From a virus: a stretch of 58,119 bases of DNA. The stretch lies in the IMG/VR virus record IMGVR_UViG_3300029319_000051, positions 1-58,119 of that record. One strand, written 5' to 3'. The position numbers and the translations under genes are program-made. Within the stretch, counting starts at the first letter, position 1. Every line of letters begins with the position of its first letter. Shown in pieces: positions 1 through 13,689 of the stretch. The notes beneath the pieces are model-generated. The model did not search any database, was not told where the DNA came from, and was given only the letters and a program-made list of their open reading frames with translations.

Positions 1-22
1 ACGCACCGACTGCGCTCCCTTG

Positions 23-64
23 AAAAAGGTGGGGGTGTAGTGACGTTTCACCAAGCACCCCCTT
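23..64 (-). terminator. Rho-independent-type terminator of the left minus-strand gene chain
   Basis: Read on the minus strand, GGGGGTG (62-56) pairs with CACCCCC (37-31). An inner GTGA/TCAC stem lies within it. The hairpin is followed by ACC and then five T's (27-23). It lies just 10 bases past the stop of the last gene of the minus-strand chain, which is where a terminator is expected. The T run is short, so this is probable rather than certain. Confidence 0.6.
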
Positions 65-73
65 GGTCAAACT

Positions 74-217
74 TCAATCAACCAAATCCTTTTGTTCGTT
101 TTGCCATTTGTCGTGGGCTTTCTCTACGGCAGTGTTGATGGCCTCTGCCTGTGCGCGATCGATTGCCTGTCCCTGCATACGGGAGAGTTCGACGATTACT
201 TCGATGATGTCTTTCAT
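74..217 (-). CDS. Small hypothetical protein, 47 aa
   Basis: Function not recognised. The product starts MKDIIEVIVELSRMQGQAID and is largely helical and charged, ending KDLVD. Its ATG overlaps the TGA of the upstream 52-aa gene in the ATGA arrangement used along this whole chain, which is the main reason to believe it. It is the last gene before the terminator at 23-64. Confidence 0.6.
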   Translation of the reverse strand: MKDIIEVIVELSRMQGQAIDRAQAEAINTAVEKAHDKWQNEQKDLVD

Positions 218-1365: not shown

Positions 1366-1536
1366 TTATTCATTATCAACAACTTGGAAGCTGTTGTTCT
1401 TCACGGTCTGACCCGTACCTGCCCAAAAATCATGGGCATCATCGCGGGCTACGTCTACGCTCGGGGCGTAGAGGTAGTGGGCTGTCCAATCGTCGCGGTC
1501 GCGCCCAAAGTAGGTGATGTACCTGTACATATTCAT
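1366..1536 (-). CDS. Small hypothetical protein, 56 aa
   Basis: Function not recognised. The product starts MNMYRYITYFGRDRDDWTAH and is rich in Tyr, Trp and Asp. The beginning suggests a beta strand followed by an acidic helix (VDVARDDAHDFW). The start overlaps the stop of the 125-aa gene by ATGA. Confidence 0.6.
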   Translation of the reverse strand: MNMYRYITYFGRDRDDWTAHYLYAPSVDVARDDAHDFWAGTGQTVKNNSFQVVDNE

Positions 1537-1910
1537 AGGTAGATGGCTTCAGAGTTGGCAAAATCGTAGATGGCCTTCTCACCCCGCGCTTTGGCAAGTT
1601 CGAGAGCCACTTGCTTGGACTTTACTACGTCAGAGAGTTCGAGGTAAGCTATACCTGCGGGGTCTTCGACCACATCCACCCACGCTCCGATGACTTGGTT
1701 GGGGTCACTCACCACCGACTGAAGTCGGTTCATTTCTCGGTTGAAGGTTCGGAACGAGAGTTCGTCGTTCTTGCACTTGAACGCGCCCACCGCTGGCTCT
1801 GCACCACCGACGGCATAGCCGTCCACGCCTCCATAGGTGAGGAGGTCTTCGCCTCGGACGCTGAAGCCCTCGCTCTCTTGAACGAGGAAGTATAAGGATT
1901 TGATTGTCAT
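1533..1910 (-). CDS. Hypothetical protein downstream of the hammerhead ribozyme, 125 aa
   Basis: Function not recognised. The chosen start gives MTIKSLYFLVQESEGFSVRG, and the ATG lies 26 nt after the predicted ribozyme cut. An upstream in-frame start would put the N-terminus inside the ribozyme and is unlikely. The product has a Gly-rich centre (GGVDGYAVGGAEP) and ends with helices. The gene contains several perfect short hairpins (1661-1671, 1714-1729, 1809-1823). It is coupled to the 56-aa gene by ATGA. Confidence 0.65.
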   Translation of the reverse strand: MTIKSLYFLVQESEGFSVRGEDLLTYGGVDGYAVGGAEPAVGAFKCKNDELSFRTFNREMNRLQSVVSDPNQVIGAWVDVVEDPAGIAYLELSDVVKSKQVALELAKARGEKAIYDFANSEAIYL

Positions 1911-1930
1911 CGTAGATGAATTTGAAGTTT

Positions 1931-1980
1931 GATACAGACGCCTCACGGCGTTTCGTCCAGTCAGGACTCGTCAGTGTACC
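1931..1980 (-). ncRNA. Type I hammerhead self-cleaving ribozyme
   Basis: All parts of the hammerhead core are present in order on the minus strand. Stem I is GGTACA (1980-1975) with TGTATC (1936-1931), six pairs including one G-U. Then come CTGACGA (the CUGANGA box), stem II GTCC/GGAC with a 5-nt loop, GAAA, and stem III CGCC/GGCG closed by a GTGA (GNRA) tetraloop. The cleavage triplet is GTC, and the predicted cut lies between 1937 and 1936. Both termini lie in stem I, which makes it type I. Cleavage leaves a 5' end reading TGTATCAAACTTC, so the TCAAACTTCAA element falls at the new transcript end, 26 nt before the ATG at 1910. Every conserved core residue is intact. Activity is inferred. Confidence 0.9.
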
Positions 1981-2081
1981 TGAAATGCCTGTTGGCATTC
2001 TTCGCAAGTGTGCCTGCTTTCCGCGCTTTCGTCGGTGGGCACAAAATCTGCAAGGCAGATGGAGCATGGCTTCGTGTCCAT
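1971..2081 (-). CDS. Mini zinc-ribbon/finger protein, 36 aa
   Basis: The product MDTKPCSICLADFVPT continues to a second knuckle HTCEECQQAF. The CxxC...HxCxxC spacing is that of a small treble-clef or zinc-ribbon protein that binds one zinc. The ATG begins one base after the stop of the 46-aa gene. Its TGA stop is the TGA of the ribozyme's CTGACGA box, so the reading frame ends inside the ribozyme core but before the cleavage site. The partner is unknown; small phage zinc proteins often bind nucleic acid or host RNA polymerase. Confidence 0.6.
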   Translation of the reverse strand: MDTKPCSICLADFVPTDESAESRHTCEECQQAFQVH

Positions 2082-2082
2082 A

Positions 2083-2223
2083 TCAGCAGTCGATGAGGTC
2101 AGCCAAGGTCATCTGCTCGTCGCAGGTCAGCTCGTCCCACACAGCAGTGCAGGTGAGGAGGTCGAGGTCGAAAGAAGAGGTCAGGAGGTCAGCGATGAGC
2201 TGACGGCGCAGTTGCTTATCCAT
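2083..2223 (-). CDS. Small acidic hypothetical protein, 46 aa
   Basis: The product starts MDKQLRRQLIADLLTSSFDL and is an acidic, Leu/Asp-rich helical protein with three Cys. Function not recognised. The start at 2223 follows a 41-nt leader that contains TTTTTCAAACTTCAA and begins at the foot of hairpin H2. In-frame upstream starts would read through that leader and are less likely. Confidence 0.6.
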   Translation of the reverse strand: MDKQLRRQLIADLLTSSFDLDLLTCTAVWDELTCDEQMTLADLIDC

Positions 2224-2648: not shown

Positions 2649-3197
2649 TTAGAAGGGGAGTTGGTCAAGTCCAACTTCGTTGGAAGGAGAAGGCAGAGTC
2701 GTAGACTCCATGTGCAGGGCGAGCACTGCGGTGAGAGCCTCAATCTTAGCTTCCAAGGAAGCTACTCTTGACTCGTCAACCGAAGGTTGAGCGGCAACTT
2801 CAGCCCTTTCAGCAGTAGCAGAACGAAGTTCTGCTTTCTTCGCTGCTTTAGCAGCGGCCCCAGTGGCCACCGAGACAGCTTTAGCTGACTCCCTAGCTTC
2901 CTTAACGGAAGCTGTCTTAGCCTTCTTCGAAGGCTTAATCGGACCAACTTCGTTGGTCTTGAGAGCCGCTTTGTCTTGGCGGTCTGCCACCTTCTGTGAA
3001 GGTGTTCTCTTCGTCGTCTTACGACGACGCTTCTTGCCAGCCTTCTTCGAAGGCTTGTCGGCAACCTCTTCGAGGTTGTTGATGAAGTCCAAAGCTTCTG
3101 AAAGAAGCTTGACAGCAAGAGCCTTACGGCTCTTGGTTGGACGGAAGATGGCTTGGTTGGTTGCCTTACGGCAAGCTGAGAAATTGAAGTTTGACAT
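2649..3197 (-). CDS. Lys/Ala-rich histone H1-like DNA-binding protein with SSB-type tail, 182 aa
   Basis: The N-terminus (MSNFNFSACRKATNQAIFRP) leads into a helical segment to about residue 45. A long basic low-complexity tail follows (KKAGKKRRRKTTKR, then repeated KKA/AKAAKKAE blocks), like histone H1 or bacterial Hc1 tails. Next come a coiled coil (VASLEAKIEALTAVLALH) and an acidic end, GLDQLPF. The DxLPF end resembles the C-terminal tip of single-stranded DNA-binding proteins that recruits partners, and the SSB-like protein at 53802-54104 ends DALPF. A role in compacting or organising DNA is inferred. The start codon directly abuts hairpin H3. The gene contains at least thirteen perfect short hairpins. 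Confidence 0.6.
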   Translation of the reverse strand: MSNFNFSACRKATNQAIFRPTKSRKALAVKLLSEALDFINNLEEVADKPSKKAGKKRRRKTTKRTPSQKVADRQDKAALKTNEVGPIKPSKKAKTASVKEARESAKAVSVATGAAAKAAKKAELRSATAERAEVAAQPSVDESRVASLEAKIEALTAVLALHMESTTLPSPSNEVGLDQLPF

Positions 3198-3252
3198 GAG
3201 ATAATGTATTAAATGAAACTCATAGAGTTTCGTTTCATTTAATACATATCTC
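3198..3252 (-). promoter_or_regulatory. Long hairpin H3 abutting the start codon of the H1-like gene
   Basis: GAGATAATGTATTAAATGAAAC (3198-3219, split here by its one bulge) pairs with GTTTCATTTAATACATATCTC (3232-3252), giving about 20 bp closed by a 12-nt loop. Its 3' foot on the minus strand is directly followed by ATGTCAAACTTC, the start of the H1-like gene. The stem sequence is unrelated to H1/H2, but the position relative to TCAAACTTCAA is the same. If the mRNA were processed here it would be nearly leaderless. Confidence 0.65.
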
Positions 3253-4184: not shown

Positions 4185-4192
4185 TATATTTG
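4185..4192 (+). promoter_or_regulatory. Bacteroidetes-type -7 promoter box, ATG 3 nt downstream
   Basis: TATATTTG is followed by CTT and then ATG (4196). With the usual few-base spacing from the -7 box to the transcription start, the mRNA would begin at or next to the start codon. No clear -33 TTG is present. Confidence 0.65.
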
Positions 4193-7412: not shown

Positions 7413-8018
7413 ATGAAAACACTAGACATTTTTGTTGTTGAGTTAGAAAAAAAACTCAACGACACAATTACCACGGACGGTGGTTTAGAGCTTTATGTAG
7501 ATTCAAGATTTAATGAATTTGAACATAGAGTAAATGAGGCGACCGTTGTGTGTTCTCCTTTGAAACACAATACAGGAGTTAAAGTTGGTGATACACTATA
7601 CTTTCACCACCTCGTTGTAATCAATGATGGTCAACCTTTAACTGGTAATGACAACCACTATCTTGTTCGTTACGACCCAGATCATACTGTAAACAACCAA
7701 GCTATAGCATATAAGAGTGCAAAAAGTGGACACATATATAGTCTTGGCGGTTGGACTCTTCTCTCGCCTGTTGAAGAAGGTCCTGATCCTGGGGAACAAA
7801 GCGACCTTATCGAAGTGGTCAAGCTTACCGACTCTCCTGTTCGCAAAGCTCGCGTTGCTTTTAACGCTCCTTGGATTGAAGAGCTTGGGCTCTCTGTTGG
7901 CGATGTGGTGGGCATTAAGAAGAACAGAGACTACGAGCTAACCATTGACGGCAACAAGTACTTTAGAGTTAGAGCTGAAGATATCCTTTATGTCGAAGAA
8001 GAAGTTCACAACGATTGA
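7413..8018 (+). CDS. GroES-like co-chaperonin, 201 aa
   Basis: Two GroES-style segments are visible: GVKVGDTLYFHH near the middle, and a C-terminal GLSVGDVVGIKKN with YFRVRAEDILYVEEE. GroES proteins end in the same way, with a VGD strand, a Lys-rich turn and an R(E/A)xDIL strand. The N-terminus (DIFVVELEKKL) matches the first strand. At 201 residues it is about twice the bacterial length, as with other phage co-chaperonins such as T4 gp31 relatives that carry insertions. It would act with host GroEL in capsid folding. The assignment is by motif and moderately sure. Confidence 0.6.
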   Translation: MKTLDIFVVELEKKLNDTITTDGGLELYVDSRFNEFEHRVNEATVVCSPLKHNTGVKVGDTLYFHHLVVINDGQPLTGNDNHYLVRYDPDHTVNNQAIAYKSAKSGHIYSLGGWTLLSPVEEGPDPGEQSDLIEVVKLTDSPVRKARVAFNAPWIEELGLSVGDVVGIKKNRDYELTIDGNKYFRVRAEDILYVEEEVHND

Positions 8019-9146: not shown

Positions 9147-11238
9147 TGAGGACATTATCCGAATTTGTCCCAAGGGTACGGAAGGTGAAGTTCTTGAGAT
9201 CGGTGGGTTACTCATTGCACTTCCCGCTCAGCCTCCCGAGAAAGAAATTACAGGATATGGCCGTCCAGACGACATGCAGCTGTGGGAGAGGATTCCTATG
9301 CCACAAGAGCTGTCTCGGATTAAGTCTATGGATGAGTGGGGGGAGATGCCAAGGGAGTTTCGACAGAAGTTTTCTCCGTATATCGAGGAGGAGTTTCGCC
9401 GCAGGCGTGAAGGCTTTTGGTTTTTCAATGCAGGTGAGCCTACATATATTACGGGCAGGCATTACATGATGCTGCAATGGACCCGAATGGACATTGGGTA
9501 TCCAGATTATTTAGAGTTCCAAAGAGAAATTTTCTTACATTTGTGTGCGTGTGAGGCGGACCCACGCTGCATAGGGCAGCTGTACACCAAGTGCAGGCGT
9601 AGCGGATACACGAATATCTGCTCGTCTGTTCTTCTCGACGAGGCCACACAAGTCAAAGACAAGCTTCTGGGGATACAGTCAAAGACTGGTAAGGACGCCC
9701 AGGAGAATATATTCATGAAGAAGGTCGTGCAGATGTTCAGGCACTACCCCTTTTTCTTTAAACCTATTCAGGATGGAACGACCAATCCGCGCATGGAGCT
9801 GGCTTTTCGCGAGCCGTCTAAGAGAATCACGAAGAACAATAAGACTACGCAGAAGGGCGAGGCTCTTAATACGGTCATAAACTGGAAGAATACCACCAAC
9901 AACGCATACGATGGTGAGAAACTTCACTTGTTGTATCTAGATGAGGCTGGTAAGTGGGAGAAGCCTACGGACATAAGAGATGCCTGGAGGATACAGAGAA
10001 CCTGCTTGATCGTTGGCAGAAAGATTGTGGGAAAGGCCATGGTGGGGAGTACAGTAAACCCCATGGACAAAGGTGGGAAGGAGTACAAAGATCTCTGGAA
10101 AGATTCAGATCCCAACGAAAGAAACAAAAACGGGAGAACTAGAAGTGGCCTATACAGGCTGTTTATACCTGCTTACGATTCTCTAGAAGGGTTTTTTGAC
10201 AAACACGGTAGAGCTATTCACTCTGACCCAGAAGAGGTTGTTGCTGGCCTTGATGGGGAAGATATTGTCTTTGGGGCAAAGACTTACCTAAAGAATGAAA
10301 GAGAAAACCTCAAGAATGACGCTTCTGAGCTCAACGAGGTTATCAGGCAGTTCCCGTTCACAGAGGATGAAGCCTTTAGAGATAGCATTGATGGTAGTCT
10401 ATTTAATGTCGGACACATCTATGAGCAGATTCAATACAACGATGAACTGTTTCCAAACCCGATCGTAAGGGGTAACTTTGTTTGGAAAGGAGGGGTTCAG
10501 GACACCGAGGTTGTATTTAAGCCTGATGCCAACGGCAGGTTTAGAATAGCATGGATGCCTCCAGTAGAGCTGAGGAATCAAAAAAAGTTTGAAAGAAACA
10601 AACGCATTGCGCCTAATGCAGAGCTGGGGGTAGGCGGGGTTGACTCTTACGACCTTGACGCCACCGTCGATGGACGGGGGTCTAAGGGGGCACTACATCT
10701 GTACAACAAGTTTCACATGCAGCATCCTGCAAACATGTTTGTATTGGAGTATGCGTCCCGTCCGCCTTTGGCTAAAATATTTTATGAAGACTGCTTGATG
10801 GCTGCTGTTTTCTACGGTTACCCACTCTTAATTGAAAACAATAAGTACGGCATTGCAAGACACTTTGAGTCAAGGGGTTATGATGGTTACTTAATGGATA
10901 GGCCTCGCCACTTGATGAGCGCAAATGCTAAGGTAAATGTAAAAACCAAAGGCATACCCTCAAACTCTCAAGACGTAATCCAGGCTCATGCTCATGCCAT
11001 TGAGGAATACATACACAACAACGTTGGAGTCAACAGAGAAACTGGGGATTACGGCAAGATGTATTTCAACAGAACTTTAGAAGATTGGATTGGATTTAAA
11101 ATCAACGATCGAACTAAGTTTGACTTGACAATTAGCTCTGGCCTGTGTCTTCTTGCCGCACAAAAAGCAAGGGTAAAAAAGAAAGAATCCAAGTTTGATG
11201 AAAAGCGTTTTTTCCGCAGATATGAGGTACGCGGATGA
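9130..11238 (+). CDS. terL: Large terminase subunit, 702 aa
   Basis: This is the ATPase-nuclease motor that packages DNA into the prohead. A Walker-A-like TKCRRSGYT lies at about residues 153-161, a Walker B LLYLDE with catalytic acid at about 267-272, and a coupling motif GSTVNP at about 306-311. The C-terminal RNase-H-like nuclease starts near VGGVDSYDLD (about 501-510), where the aspartates are candidate metal ligands. The Walker A lacks the usual GKT, as in several phage terminases with an RxSGxT form. The order (small proteins, terminase, portal) is classical. Confidence 0.93.
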   Translation: MDKYSDEDIIRICPKGTEGEVLEIGGLLIALPAQPPEKEITGYGRPDDMQLWERIPMPQELSRIKSMDEWGEMPREFRQKFSPYIEEEFRRRREGFWFFNAGEPTYITGRHYMMLQWTRMDIGYPDYLEFQREIFLHLCACEADPRCIGQLYTKCRRSGYTNICSSVLLDEATQVKDKLLGIQSKTGKDAQENIFMKKVVQMFRHYPFFFKPIQDGTTNPRMELAFREPSKRITKNNKTTQKGEALNTVINWKNTTNNAYDGEKLHLLYLDEAGKWEKPTDIRDAWRIQRTCLIVGRKIVGKAMVGSTVNPMDKGGKEYKDLWKDSDPNERNKNGRTRSGLYRLFIPAYDSLEGFFDKHGRAIHSDPEEVVAGLDGEDIVFGAKTYLKNERENLKNDASELNEVIRQFPFTEDEAFRDSIDGSLFNVGHIYEQIQYNDELFPNPIVRGNFVWKGGVQDTEVVFKPDANGRFRIAWMPPVELRNQKKFERNKRIAPNAELGVGGVDSYDLDATVDGRGSKGALHLYNKFHMQHPANMFVLEYASRPPLAKIFYEDCLMAAVFYGYPLLIENNKYGIARHFESRGYDGYLMDRPRHLMSANAKVNVKTKGIPSNSQDVIQAHAHAIEEYIHNNVGVNRETGDYGKMYFNRTLEDWIGFKINDRTKFDLTISSGLCLLAAQKARVKKKESKFDEKRFFRRYEVRG

Positions 11239-11243
11239 TTTGT

Positions 11244-11251
11244 TATATTTG
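11244..11251 (+). promoter_or_regulatory. Bacteroidetes-type -7 promoter box before the portal gene
   Basis: TATATTTG lies five bases after the terminase stop. The portal ATG (11269) follows 17 bases later through an AT-rich leader. Confidence 0.6.
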
Positions 11252-11268
11252 CACTAAATCAGCTGTAA

Positions 11269-13689
11269 ATGTACAATAAAGAGAACTCTAAGTCTGGTTT
11301 CCCAGATCCTCTTGCTAGTTCTATAGAGAAACAAGACAAGAGCTACGGGCTGCAATATGCAAAGGCCATTGAGGGGCAGTGGGGCAAAATGACCGACAAG
11401 AGTTCTTTGTATGGTAGCAGAAACGAGATATTCAAAAGAAACAGGCACTACGCCAACGGTACTCAAGACACTACCATATATAAGAAGCTTTTGACTTCTT
11501 TGAATCCAAATGATGGAGAGGGTAGTTTGTTGAACTTGGATTACACTCCAGTTCCTATTCTGCCAAAATTTGTGCGTATTGTAGTCAATAAGATTCTTTC
11601 TCGCAATCCATACCCCAACCTTGAAGCTGTTGATCCACTTTCTTCTTCTGAAAAGAACAAGCAAAAGCAAAGACTAAGAACTCAAGTAGCTTTAAAAAAA
11701 GATCTTCAAAACTTAAAACAGAAAACTGGGGGGTTGGTTTTAGATGTAGATCCAGATCAGCTGCCAGACTCATTAGAGGAAGCAGATATCTTTTTGGACA
11801 CAAACATAAAAACTGACGCTGAAGTTGCGGCACAGGTCGCAACAAATATGACTCTGTCATGGAACAACTTTAATGACGGCACATACAGGCGTTGTGTTAA
11901 TGATCTGGCTGCGCTCGGTATGGCCGTTGTTAAAAGAAACAACGATCCCAACTATGGCATAAGCACCGAGTATGTCGATCCTGCAATGTTTATTCACGGA
12001 TATACAGAGGATCCTTTTTTTGAAGACATTGTTTATGCAGGTCACATTAAAGAAATGACAGTTAGTGAGTTAAAGAGACTTGCTGGCAACGAGCTTTCTG
12101 ATGATGATTTGAAAAAAATCTTGAAGGTTGCTTCAAAAAGATCAGACAAATATTCCCCATATAACGACTATAGAAGCTACAACTCCAAGAATGATTACAG
12201 CCAGTACATGGTTCAGGTCTTGGACTTCGAGTTTATTTCTGTAGACTGCATGCACTTTCAAGAAAAACAAAACCGCCACGGAAACGTAGGGTTTTACTAT
12301 GAAGGCTTTCAGTTTAAAGAGCGTCAAGGATCTGTTTACGAGCGCATACCACATAAGATGGAGATGCAAATGCTTTACGGGGGGACCTATGTGTTGGGTA
12401 CAAACTACATAGTCAACTATGGCAAGAGCGCCAACGTTCCTAAAAACGTTCACGACTTGTCTCGGTGTAAGCTTTCATACTCTCCTGTTGCCACCAATTT
12501 AATGGACAACATGCCAAAGTCTATGGTTGATAGCTGTGTTGGGTTTGCAGATATGTTGCAGATTACTCATCTTAAGCTTCAGCAAGCTATTGCTAAGGCT
12601 AAACCTGATGGACTTATCATTGATATTGAGGGTCTAGAGAATGTGCAGCTTGGTAAGGGGGGAGAGCTTCAACCACTAGAGCTTCATGACATTTATGAGC
12701 AGACTGGTGTTTTTTATTACAGAAGTAAAAATCCAGAGGGTGGCTTTCAAAACCCTCCAGTCAGAGAGCTTGGAAACAGCATTAGAAATATCAATGAGCT
12801 TATTGGGTTGTACAACCACTACTTAAGACTGATTAGGGATACGACAGGCATCAATGAAGCTATGGATGCCAGCTCACCTAAGGGTGATGCCCTCGTGGGA
12901 GTTAGGCAGCAAGCCATCTCTGCTGGCAACAATGCTATCTATGATATTACAAACTCAGCGATGGTGCTCTTCAAAAAAGTTTGCGAAGACATTGTCAAGT
13001 GCATACAGATTATACCAGAGGATTCTGTTTTGATGAAGGTCTATCAAAATGCTATTGGAGAGACCAACATGAAAGTCCTTTCTTCTTTTAGTGATCTTCC
13101 CATGTATAACTTTGGGGTTCAGGTTCACAAAGAGATGGAGGACGAAGAAAAGCAGTACCTGGAGCAAAACATTCAAGTTGCGTTAGCTCAGAAAGAAATA
13201 GATCTTGAAGACGCTATTTCTATTAGAGATCTCAAAGACATAAACCAAGCAGAGCGTTTGTTGATTGTAAGGAGAAAGAAAAGAATGAAGCAGCAGCAAG
13301 AGATTGCTATGCAGAACTCTCAGATGCAATCTCAGCAGGCCCAGCAAGCTGCCATGTCTGCCAGCCAAGCTAGACAGCAAGAAATGCAAATGGAGTCACA
13401 ACTCAAGGCTCAAGAGATGCAAATGAAAAACCAGCTAGAGGCACAGCTGGAGGGCGTCAAGCATGAGTTTAGAAAAGAGATAGAAATAATTAGAGCTCAG
13501 GCCACTCTTGGATTCAAGACCGATGATCAAGAATTTAAAGAAAAAATAGAGATTCTTAAGGAGGATAGAAAAGACGAGAGGGTTGACAAACAGGCATCAA
13601 AGCAATCTAAGCTTATCTCACAAAGAAAAGGTGAGAGAGGTGAGTTAGAGGAGGCTAGCTCTGGATTTGATATAAGCGAAATGTTATAA
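11269..13689 (+). CDS. Portal protein, 806 aa
   Basis: This gene forms the dodecameric DNA-entry ring at one capsid vertex. It is recognised by position (directly after the large terminase), length (700-800 aa is usual for podoviral portals) and an architecture of alpha/beta core followed by a helical crown. Segments such as INELIGLYNHYLRLIRDTTG and VGVRQQAISAGNNAIYDI (about residues 505-560) look like the stem and wing helices. The last 150 residues are a Gln/Met/Lys-rich coiled coil (QQEIAMQNSQMQSQQAQQ and onward), as expected for a barrel-type extension. Sequence-level proof would need a profile search. Confidence 0.85.
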   Translation: MYNKENSKSGFPDPLASSIEKQDKSYGLQYAKAIEGQWGKMTDKSSLYGSRNEIFKRNRHYANGTQDTTIYKKLLTSLNPNDGEGSLLNLDYTPVPILPKFVRIVVNKILSRNPYPNLEAVDPLSSSEKNKQKQRLRTQVALKKDLQNLKQKTGGLVLDVDPDQLPDSLEEADIFLDTNIKTDAEVAAQVATNMTLSWNNFNDGTYRRCVNDLAALGMAVVKRNNDPNYGISTEYVDPAMFIHGYTEDPFFEDIVYAGHIKEMTVSELKRLAGNELSDDDLKKILKVASKRSDKYSPYNDYRSYNSKNDYSQYMVQVLDFEFISVDCMHFQEKQNRHGNVGFYYEGFQFKERQGSVYERIPHKMEMQMLYGGTYVLGTNYIVNYGKSANVPKNVHDLSRCKLSYSPVATNLMDNMPKSMVDSCVGFADMLQITHLKLQQAIAKAKPDGLIIDIEGLENVQLGKGGELQPLELHDIYEQTGVFYYRSKNPEGGFQNPPVRELGNSIRNINELIGLYNHYLRLIRDTTGINEAMDASSPKGDALVGVRQQAISAGNNAIYDITNSAMVLFKKVCEDIVKCIQIIPEDSVLMKVYQNAIGETNMKVLSSFSDLPMYNFGVQVHKEMEDEEKQYLEQNIQVALAQKEIDLEDAISIRDLKDINQAERLLIVRRKKRMKQQQEIAMQNSQMQSQQAQQAAMSASQARQQEMQMESQLKAQEMQMKNQLEAQLEGVKHEFRKEIEIIRAQATLGFKTDDQEFKEKIEILKEDRKDERVDKQASKQSKLISQRKGERGELEEASSGFDISEML

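Follow-up and report, generated by a model that had tools for sequence, protein, structure and literature searches.

Hammerhead ribozymes have been found in phages in large numbers, and their role there has been an open question ever since. The window analysed here, a stretch of 58,119 nucleotides of viral DNA (IMG/VR record IMGVR_UViG_3300029319_000051), carries a hammerhead on its minus strand between two small genes, which raises the question of what such a ribozyme would do at this position. Perreault et al. (2011; PMC3088659) proposed that hammerheads of phages divide long transcripts into mRNAs of one gene each, and demonstrated cleavage within native polycistronic fragments; the same study describes a hammerhead variant in the haloviruses HF1 and HF2 that lies 13 nt ahead of a start codon. 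The reading that we favour, and consider likely, is that the window ribozyme is a functional hammerhead of type I, cutting an early polycistronic phage RNA between two genes, and that it is one of several elements supplying the 5′ end of a common leader.

The hammerhead (1931–1980, minus strand) is supported by a descriptor scan, Rfam, a hold-out covariance model and covariation. Read from 1980 to 1931, it consists of the 5′ strand of stem I (GGTACA, 1980–1975), the core CTGACGA (1974–1968), stem II (GTCC/GGAC with the loop TGACT, 1967–1955), the core GAAA (1954–1951), stem III (ACGCC-GTGA-GGCGT), C17 at 1937 and the 3′ strand of stem I (TGTATC, 1936–1931). The defining letters of the type, CTGACGA, GAAA and the cleavage triplet GTC, all lie within 1974–1937, and the helices follow the type I order with stem I open and with six (I), four (II) and five (III) pairs, one of the six stem I pairs being a G–U wobble. 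When 61 nt are folded in isolation, the minimum-energy fold breaks stem I; the centroid retains the hammerhead. The complete type I hammerhead described in the earlier note stands, with all elements in order on the minus strand and with covariation and the held-out model in agreement, and the cut that it placed between 1937 and 1936 is likewise the one predicted from the sequence.

Relatives were collected from IMG/VR with a pattern in which the core and stem II letters were fixed (more than 120 stretches), with a more restrictive one (GGTACA for stem I, TNANT for loop II, stem II free; 32 stretches) and with the 125-aa protein encoded downstream as query (ten related loci). A 14-base leader pattern and a hairpin-loop pattern each returned mostly unrelated contigs, and blastn of the cassette against cultured phages gave weak matches only. 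Forty-one loci with repeated TCAAACTTCA leaders contain 156 leader copies, 39 of which are preceded by a hammerhead, a number that includes the window itself and at least one contig entered twice (L315, L382).

The position of the cut relative to the downstream gene is nearly invariant among these relatives. In the window, the predicted 3′ product starts with UGUA-UCAAACUUC and has a 26-nt leader, UGUAUCAAACUUCAAAUUCAUCUACG (1911–1936, minus strand), which is conserved in relatives; its first six bases are the 3′ strand of stem I. As the earlier note had it, these 26 nt lead to the downstream 125-aa gene, with the predicted cut at 1937/1936 and the ATG at 1910. The TCAAACTTC element, with which that note had the leader begin, is indeed present, but it starts 4 nt past the cut and not at the cut. 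The element TCAAACTTCAA (1922–1932, minus strand) recurs before other early-operon genes of the window, with nine matches at one mismatch or fewer against 2.85 expected, a number reached in none of 100 shuffles. Across the relatives, the predicted cut falls exactly 4 nt 5′ of the leader TCAAACTTCA in 37 of the 39 hammerheads, the first ATG follows 24–29 nt past the cut in 38, and stem I extends over the leader element's first two bases. At the very start of the window, a conserved structured stretch (1–77, plus strand) also ends in TCAAACTTCAA, on the strand opposite to the early operon, and similar stretches occur in L062, L074 and L084.

The downstream gene (1533–1910, minus strand) encodes 125 aa (MTIKSLYFLVQESEGFSV...) with no assigned function, a weak match to PHROG 17808 and relatives at the ten IMG/VR loci. 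Upstream lies a 36-aa ORF with two CxxC motifs (1971–2081, minus strand), whose stop codon TGA sits within the hammerhead core CTGACGA; the same frame end is seen in L027. It is preceded by a gene of 46 aa (MDKQLRRQ..., 2083–2223, minus strand), which itself follows a hairpin and a TCAAACTTCAA leader. In six relatives, as in the window, the upstream ORF stops at the core UGA, and in many others it stops 9–22 nt upstream. The hammerhead thus lies behind a stop codon and ahead of the following leader and start codon, all on one strand, as would be expected of a processing signal. Were the flanking genes cotranscribed, the hammerhead would cut the early polycistronic RNA between them and release the downstream gene on a separate mRNA that has a 5′-OH end and the fixed 26-nt leader UGUA-UCAAACUUCAA...AUG, and stems II and III would close off the 3′ end of the upstream RNA. 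The leader might then benefit the mRNA through ribosome access or stability.

The hammerhead is not the only element found ahead of this leader. In the family of the window's downstream gene, 15 of 20 members have a hammerhead ending at the leader and four have a hairpin instead. The remaining one (L027) carries a hammerhead with a stem III insert together with a tRNA-like RNA; we rejected the idea that its hammerhead is broken, as about 115 nt are inserted within stem III and the fold is intact, and L027 is therefore counted neither as a loss nor as an exchange. In two pairs of phages (L371/L376 and L360/L262), the leader and gene are near-identical, but one phage of each pair has a hammerhead and its partner a hairpin. 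In both pairs, homology begins at the leader, and everything 5′ of it is unrelated, so genes seem to be swapped between phages at the leader. Such exchange fits interchangeable 5′ signals, but at the level of sequence it would also allow the element to belong to the upstream gene. The mRNA-processing position that the earlier note had emphasized is borne out by the fixed placement before one leader and start codon, by the upstream stops and by the exchange with hairpins.

The best-surviving alternative takes up this ambiguity: the hammerhead cleaves, but its role is in the 3′ end or decay of the upstream mRNA, trimming and protecting the upstream message, perhaps under the control of ribosomes at the core stop codon, and the leader is incidental. 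It would account for a stop codon within the core or just before it, and exchange points located at the leader would let the element remain with its upstream gene. However, the predicted cut keeps its distance to the downstream leader (4 nt in 37/39) and start codon, stem I reaches two bases into the leader element, and the upstream genes are more variable than the leader. We regard a 3′-end role as unlikely. The nucleotide-fixed position, the shared leader past the predicted cut and the replacement by other elements together point to the formation of mRNA 5′ ends, and 5′-end formation remains our preferred reading.

Other suppliers of mRNA 5′ ends with the TCAAACTTCAA leader would be long hairpins, tRNA-like RNAs and, at the first gene, a promoter combined with a short hairpin. 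Three leaders in the window lie behind hairpins and one behind the hammerhead. The long hairpins (all minus strand) are found at 2268–2325, before the leader at 2250–2240, at 1205–1265, before the leader at 1197–1187, and at 3198–3252, before TCAAACTTCAA at 3194–3184. The first two share the apical loop TGAACGTAGTGA, in which tandem G–A pairs are possible by eye; the hairpins of relatives keep this feature with other letters. Among the 108 leaders with no hammerhead, promoter or tRNA found by aragorn, a hairpin of at least 20 bp precedes 90, compared with 85 of 500 background stretches; this threshold was used because one of 14 bp is uninformative (236/500 in the background). By analogy with phage T7 early RNA, the long hairpins are probably RNase III sites, bearing in mind that hairpins are common in the background. 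The 182-aa ORF in this region (2649–3197, minus strand) is a coding sequence rich in short hairpins, the loops of which are often centred on CTTCG or GAAGG. Eight leaders lie behind a promoter of the Bacteroidota type (TAnnTTTG, separated by about 20 bases from a preceding TTG or TTTG) and a short hairpin; the downstream protein could be clustered for seven of the eight, and these are all members of one first-gene family. Directly upstream of the window hammerhead leader no TAnnTTTG box was found. Elsewhere in the window, TATATTTGC boxes are repeated at 4185, 4791, 5620 and 8493 (plus strand), just 5′ of plus-strand genes, and resemble the −7 box of Bacteroidota promoters. L084 and L027 each show, in this order, a hammerhead, a pair of small hairpins, a tRNA-like RNA and the TCAAACTTC leader (in L084, hammerhead at 7681–7632 and tRNA at 7596–7528, minus strand; in L027, at 11130–11280). 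A few leaders follow a stop codon with no evident element. Taken further, these arrangements could reflect a mixed punctuation code in a lineage of Bacteroidota phages, in which hammerheads, enzyme-cut hairpins and tRNA-like RNAs interchangeably give single-gene early mRNAs the same 5′ leader and genes are shuffled at that leader; we see this broader proposal as evenly poised between right and wrong.

The hammerheads themselves bear the marks of selection. The core is intact in all 39, and in 32 distinct sequences standard pairing is found in 480 of 480 pair cells, which are not independent events as the aligned sequences are mutually related. Seven of the 15 pairs are changed on both sides, across all three helices, with no one-sided changes among the 32 sequences, and sliding the pairing partners as a control destroys the pattern. 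The second pair of stem I is G–U in 32/32 aligned sequences, its U being part of the leader element. Loop II is 5 nt long and mostly TNANT in the clade, which is suggestive with regard to a tertiary contact between loop II and stem I. Structured inserts of about 100–130 nt are present in stem III of three hammerheads (L027:10983–11150, L355:9855–10030 and L062:4266–4412), in which Rfam recognized no family besides hammerhead and tRNA; these hammerheads are possibly regulated, and the inserts might make cleavage conditional.

The intact cores and the compensatory changes that keep all stems paired imply selection for the fold, and this bears on whether the ribozyme could be a passenger, a mobile or relic element that persists because genes are shuffled at the leader repeats and that leaves expression unaffected. 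Genes do seem to be swapped between phages at the leader, and in some phages the orthologous gene lacks a hammerhead, as such a view would predict. Yet the core is intact in 39/39, and a search of 84,980 cellular genomes gave no copy of the cassette with the GGTACA stem I; this explanation seems very improbable to us. The formation of circular or religated RNAs by gene-flanking hammerheads is less probable still: two or more hammerheads occur in a row in some relatives (L363, L369, L373), but the window and many relatives have a single copy, circles would not need a fixed spacing to the start codon, and spliced or circular products were sought by Perreault et al. (PMC3088659) and none were found.

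Finally, the score against Rfam deserves comment. The window hammerhead matches Hammerhead_1 (RF00163) with 23.7 bits (E 0.0013, 301 bp against all families), and the Rfam scan of the window at the gathering score returned two tRNAs and no hammerhead because 23.7 bits lies below the gathering score of 34 bits, which is a curation threshold and not a defining trait. The earlier note had named two findings that would jointly count against the ribozyme, a sub-cutoff covariance score and the lack of a 5′ end at 1936, and the first of the two is what we observe. However, 13 model-supported hammerheads at six related loci also fall under every Rfam hammerhead cutoff, so a sub-cutoff score is not diagnostic here. 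Against the hold-out covariance model R1, built from 27 relatives of which none has the window's stem III sequence, the window hammerhead scores 68.3 bits (E 2.7e-18). The structural descriptor scan of the 58 kb window gave exactly one hammerhead, at 1980–1931, and 200 dinucleotide shuffles gave two loose matches and no compact ones. A match to a CRISPR repeat at 1979–2003 is at chance level and was discarded. A chance match to the hammerhead consensus, which the low Rfam score might have suggested, is thus practically negligible in view of the shuffles, the covariation and the hold-out E-value.

The terminase of the window shares 40–49% identity with its counterparts in an uncultured podovirus and in Flavobacterium elemo phages, and the elemo phages also carry hammerheads, so the phage of the window probably infects a bacterium of the Bacteroidota. 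In the cultured Flavobacterium phage elemoA, a type I hammerhead precedes gp69 (L386:17290–17347; leader TCAAACTTTAAA; covariance model, 46.8 bits) and a type III hammerhead precedes gp62 (L386:19083–19139; 36.3 bits, Rfam and descriptor), both on the minus strand and with the same coordinates in NC_055852. The region of the type I hammerhead was found in 68 records; the annotated gp68 (plus strand) overlaps this hammerhead and may be spurious. These two hammerheads make the role directly testable during infection. Outside the clade, type I hammerheads on phage contigs have an open-frame ATG within 45 nt of the cut in 82 of 114 cases, compared with 23 of 103 for an antisense control. Type III hammerheads, too, are frequent before phage genes (ATG within 60 nt of GAAA in 30 of 35, loci L001–L120); after cutting, the ribozyme would remain at the 5′ end of the mRNA.

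How do these elements compare with known systems? The cutting of transcripts by phage hammerheads was already proposed (PMC3088659), and the ribozyme and the basic idea are therefore known. The clade shares the core, three stems, cut site and open stem I with the prophage and phage hammerheads of RF00163 (PMC3088659), and differs in that its stem I enters a shared leader, its 5-nt loop II is mostly TNANT, it shows apparent exchange with hairpins and tRNA-like RNAs, and its scores fall under the Rfam cutoff. RAGATH-1 (RF03152) also matches the window (22.9 bits), including a small hairpin 5′ of stem I, and the elemo type I copy (27.8 bits), but both scores are far under the gathering score of 56.3 and the small upstream hairpin is absent in several relatives. 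In phage T7 early mRNA, hairpins between the genes of one transcript are cut by RNase III, giving single-gene mRNAs with set leaders; here, by contrast, some of the sites are predicted self-cleaving ribozymes, and the hairpins are putative RNase III sites. The theta ribozymes of gut phages are HDV-like and have been proposed to trim tRNA 3′ trailers (PMC10879173). They, some in Bacteroidota phages, are self-cleaving phage RNAs adjoining tRNAs, as the hammerheads of L027 and L084, followed by a tRNA-like RNA, are predicted to be, but the hammerhead here sits 5′ of the tRNA-like RNA. In the literature searched, with preprints and most subscription papers outside its range, no report of exchange between hammerheads and hairpins was found, and as far as that search extends, what is new is a leader-locked clade that apparently exchanges with hairpins and tRNA-like RNAs, along with the stem III inserts and a cultured system for testing.
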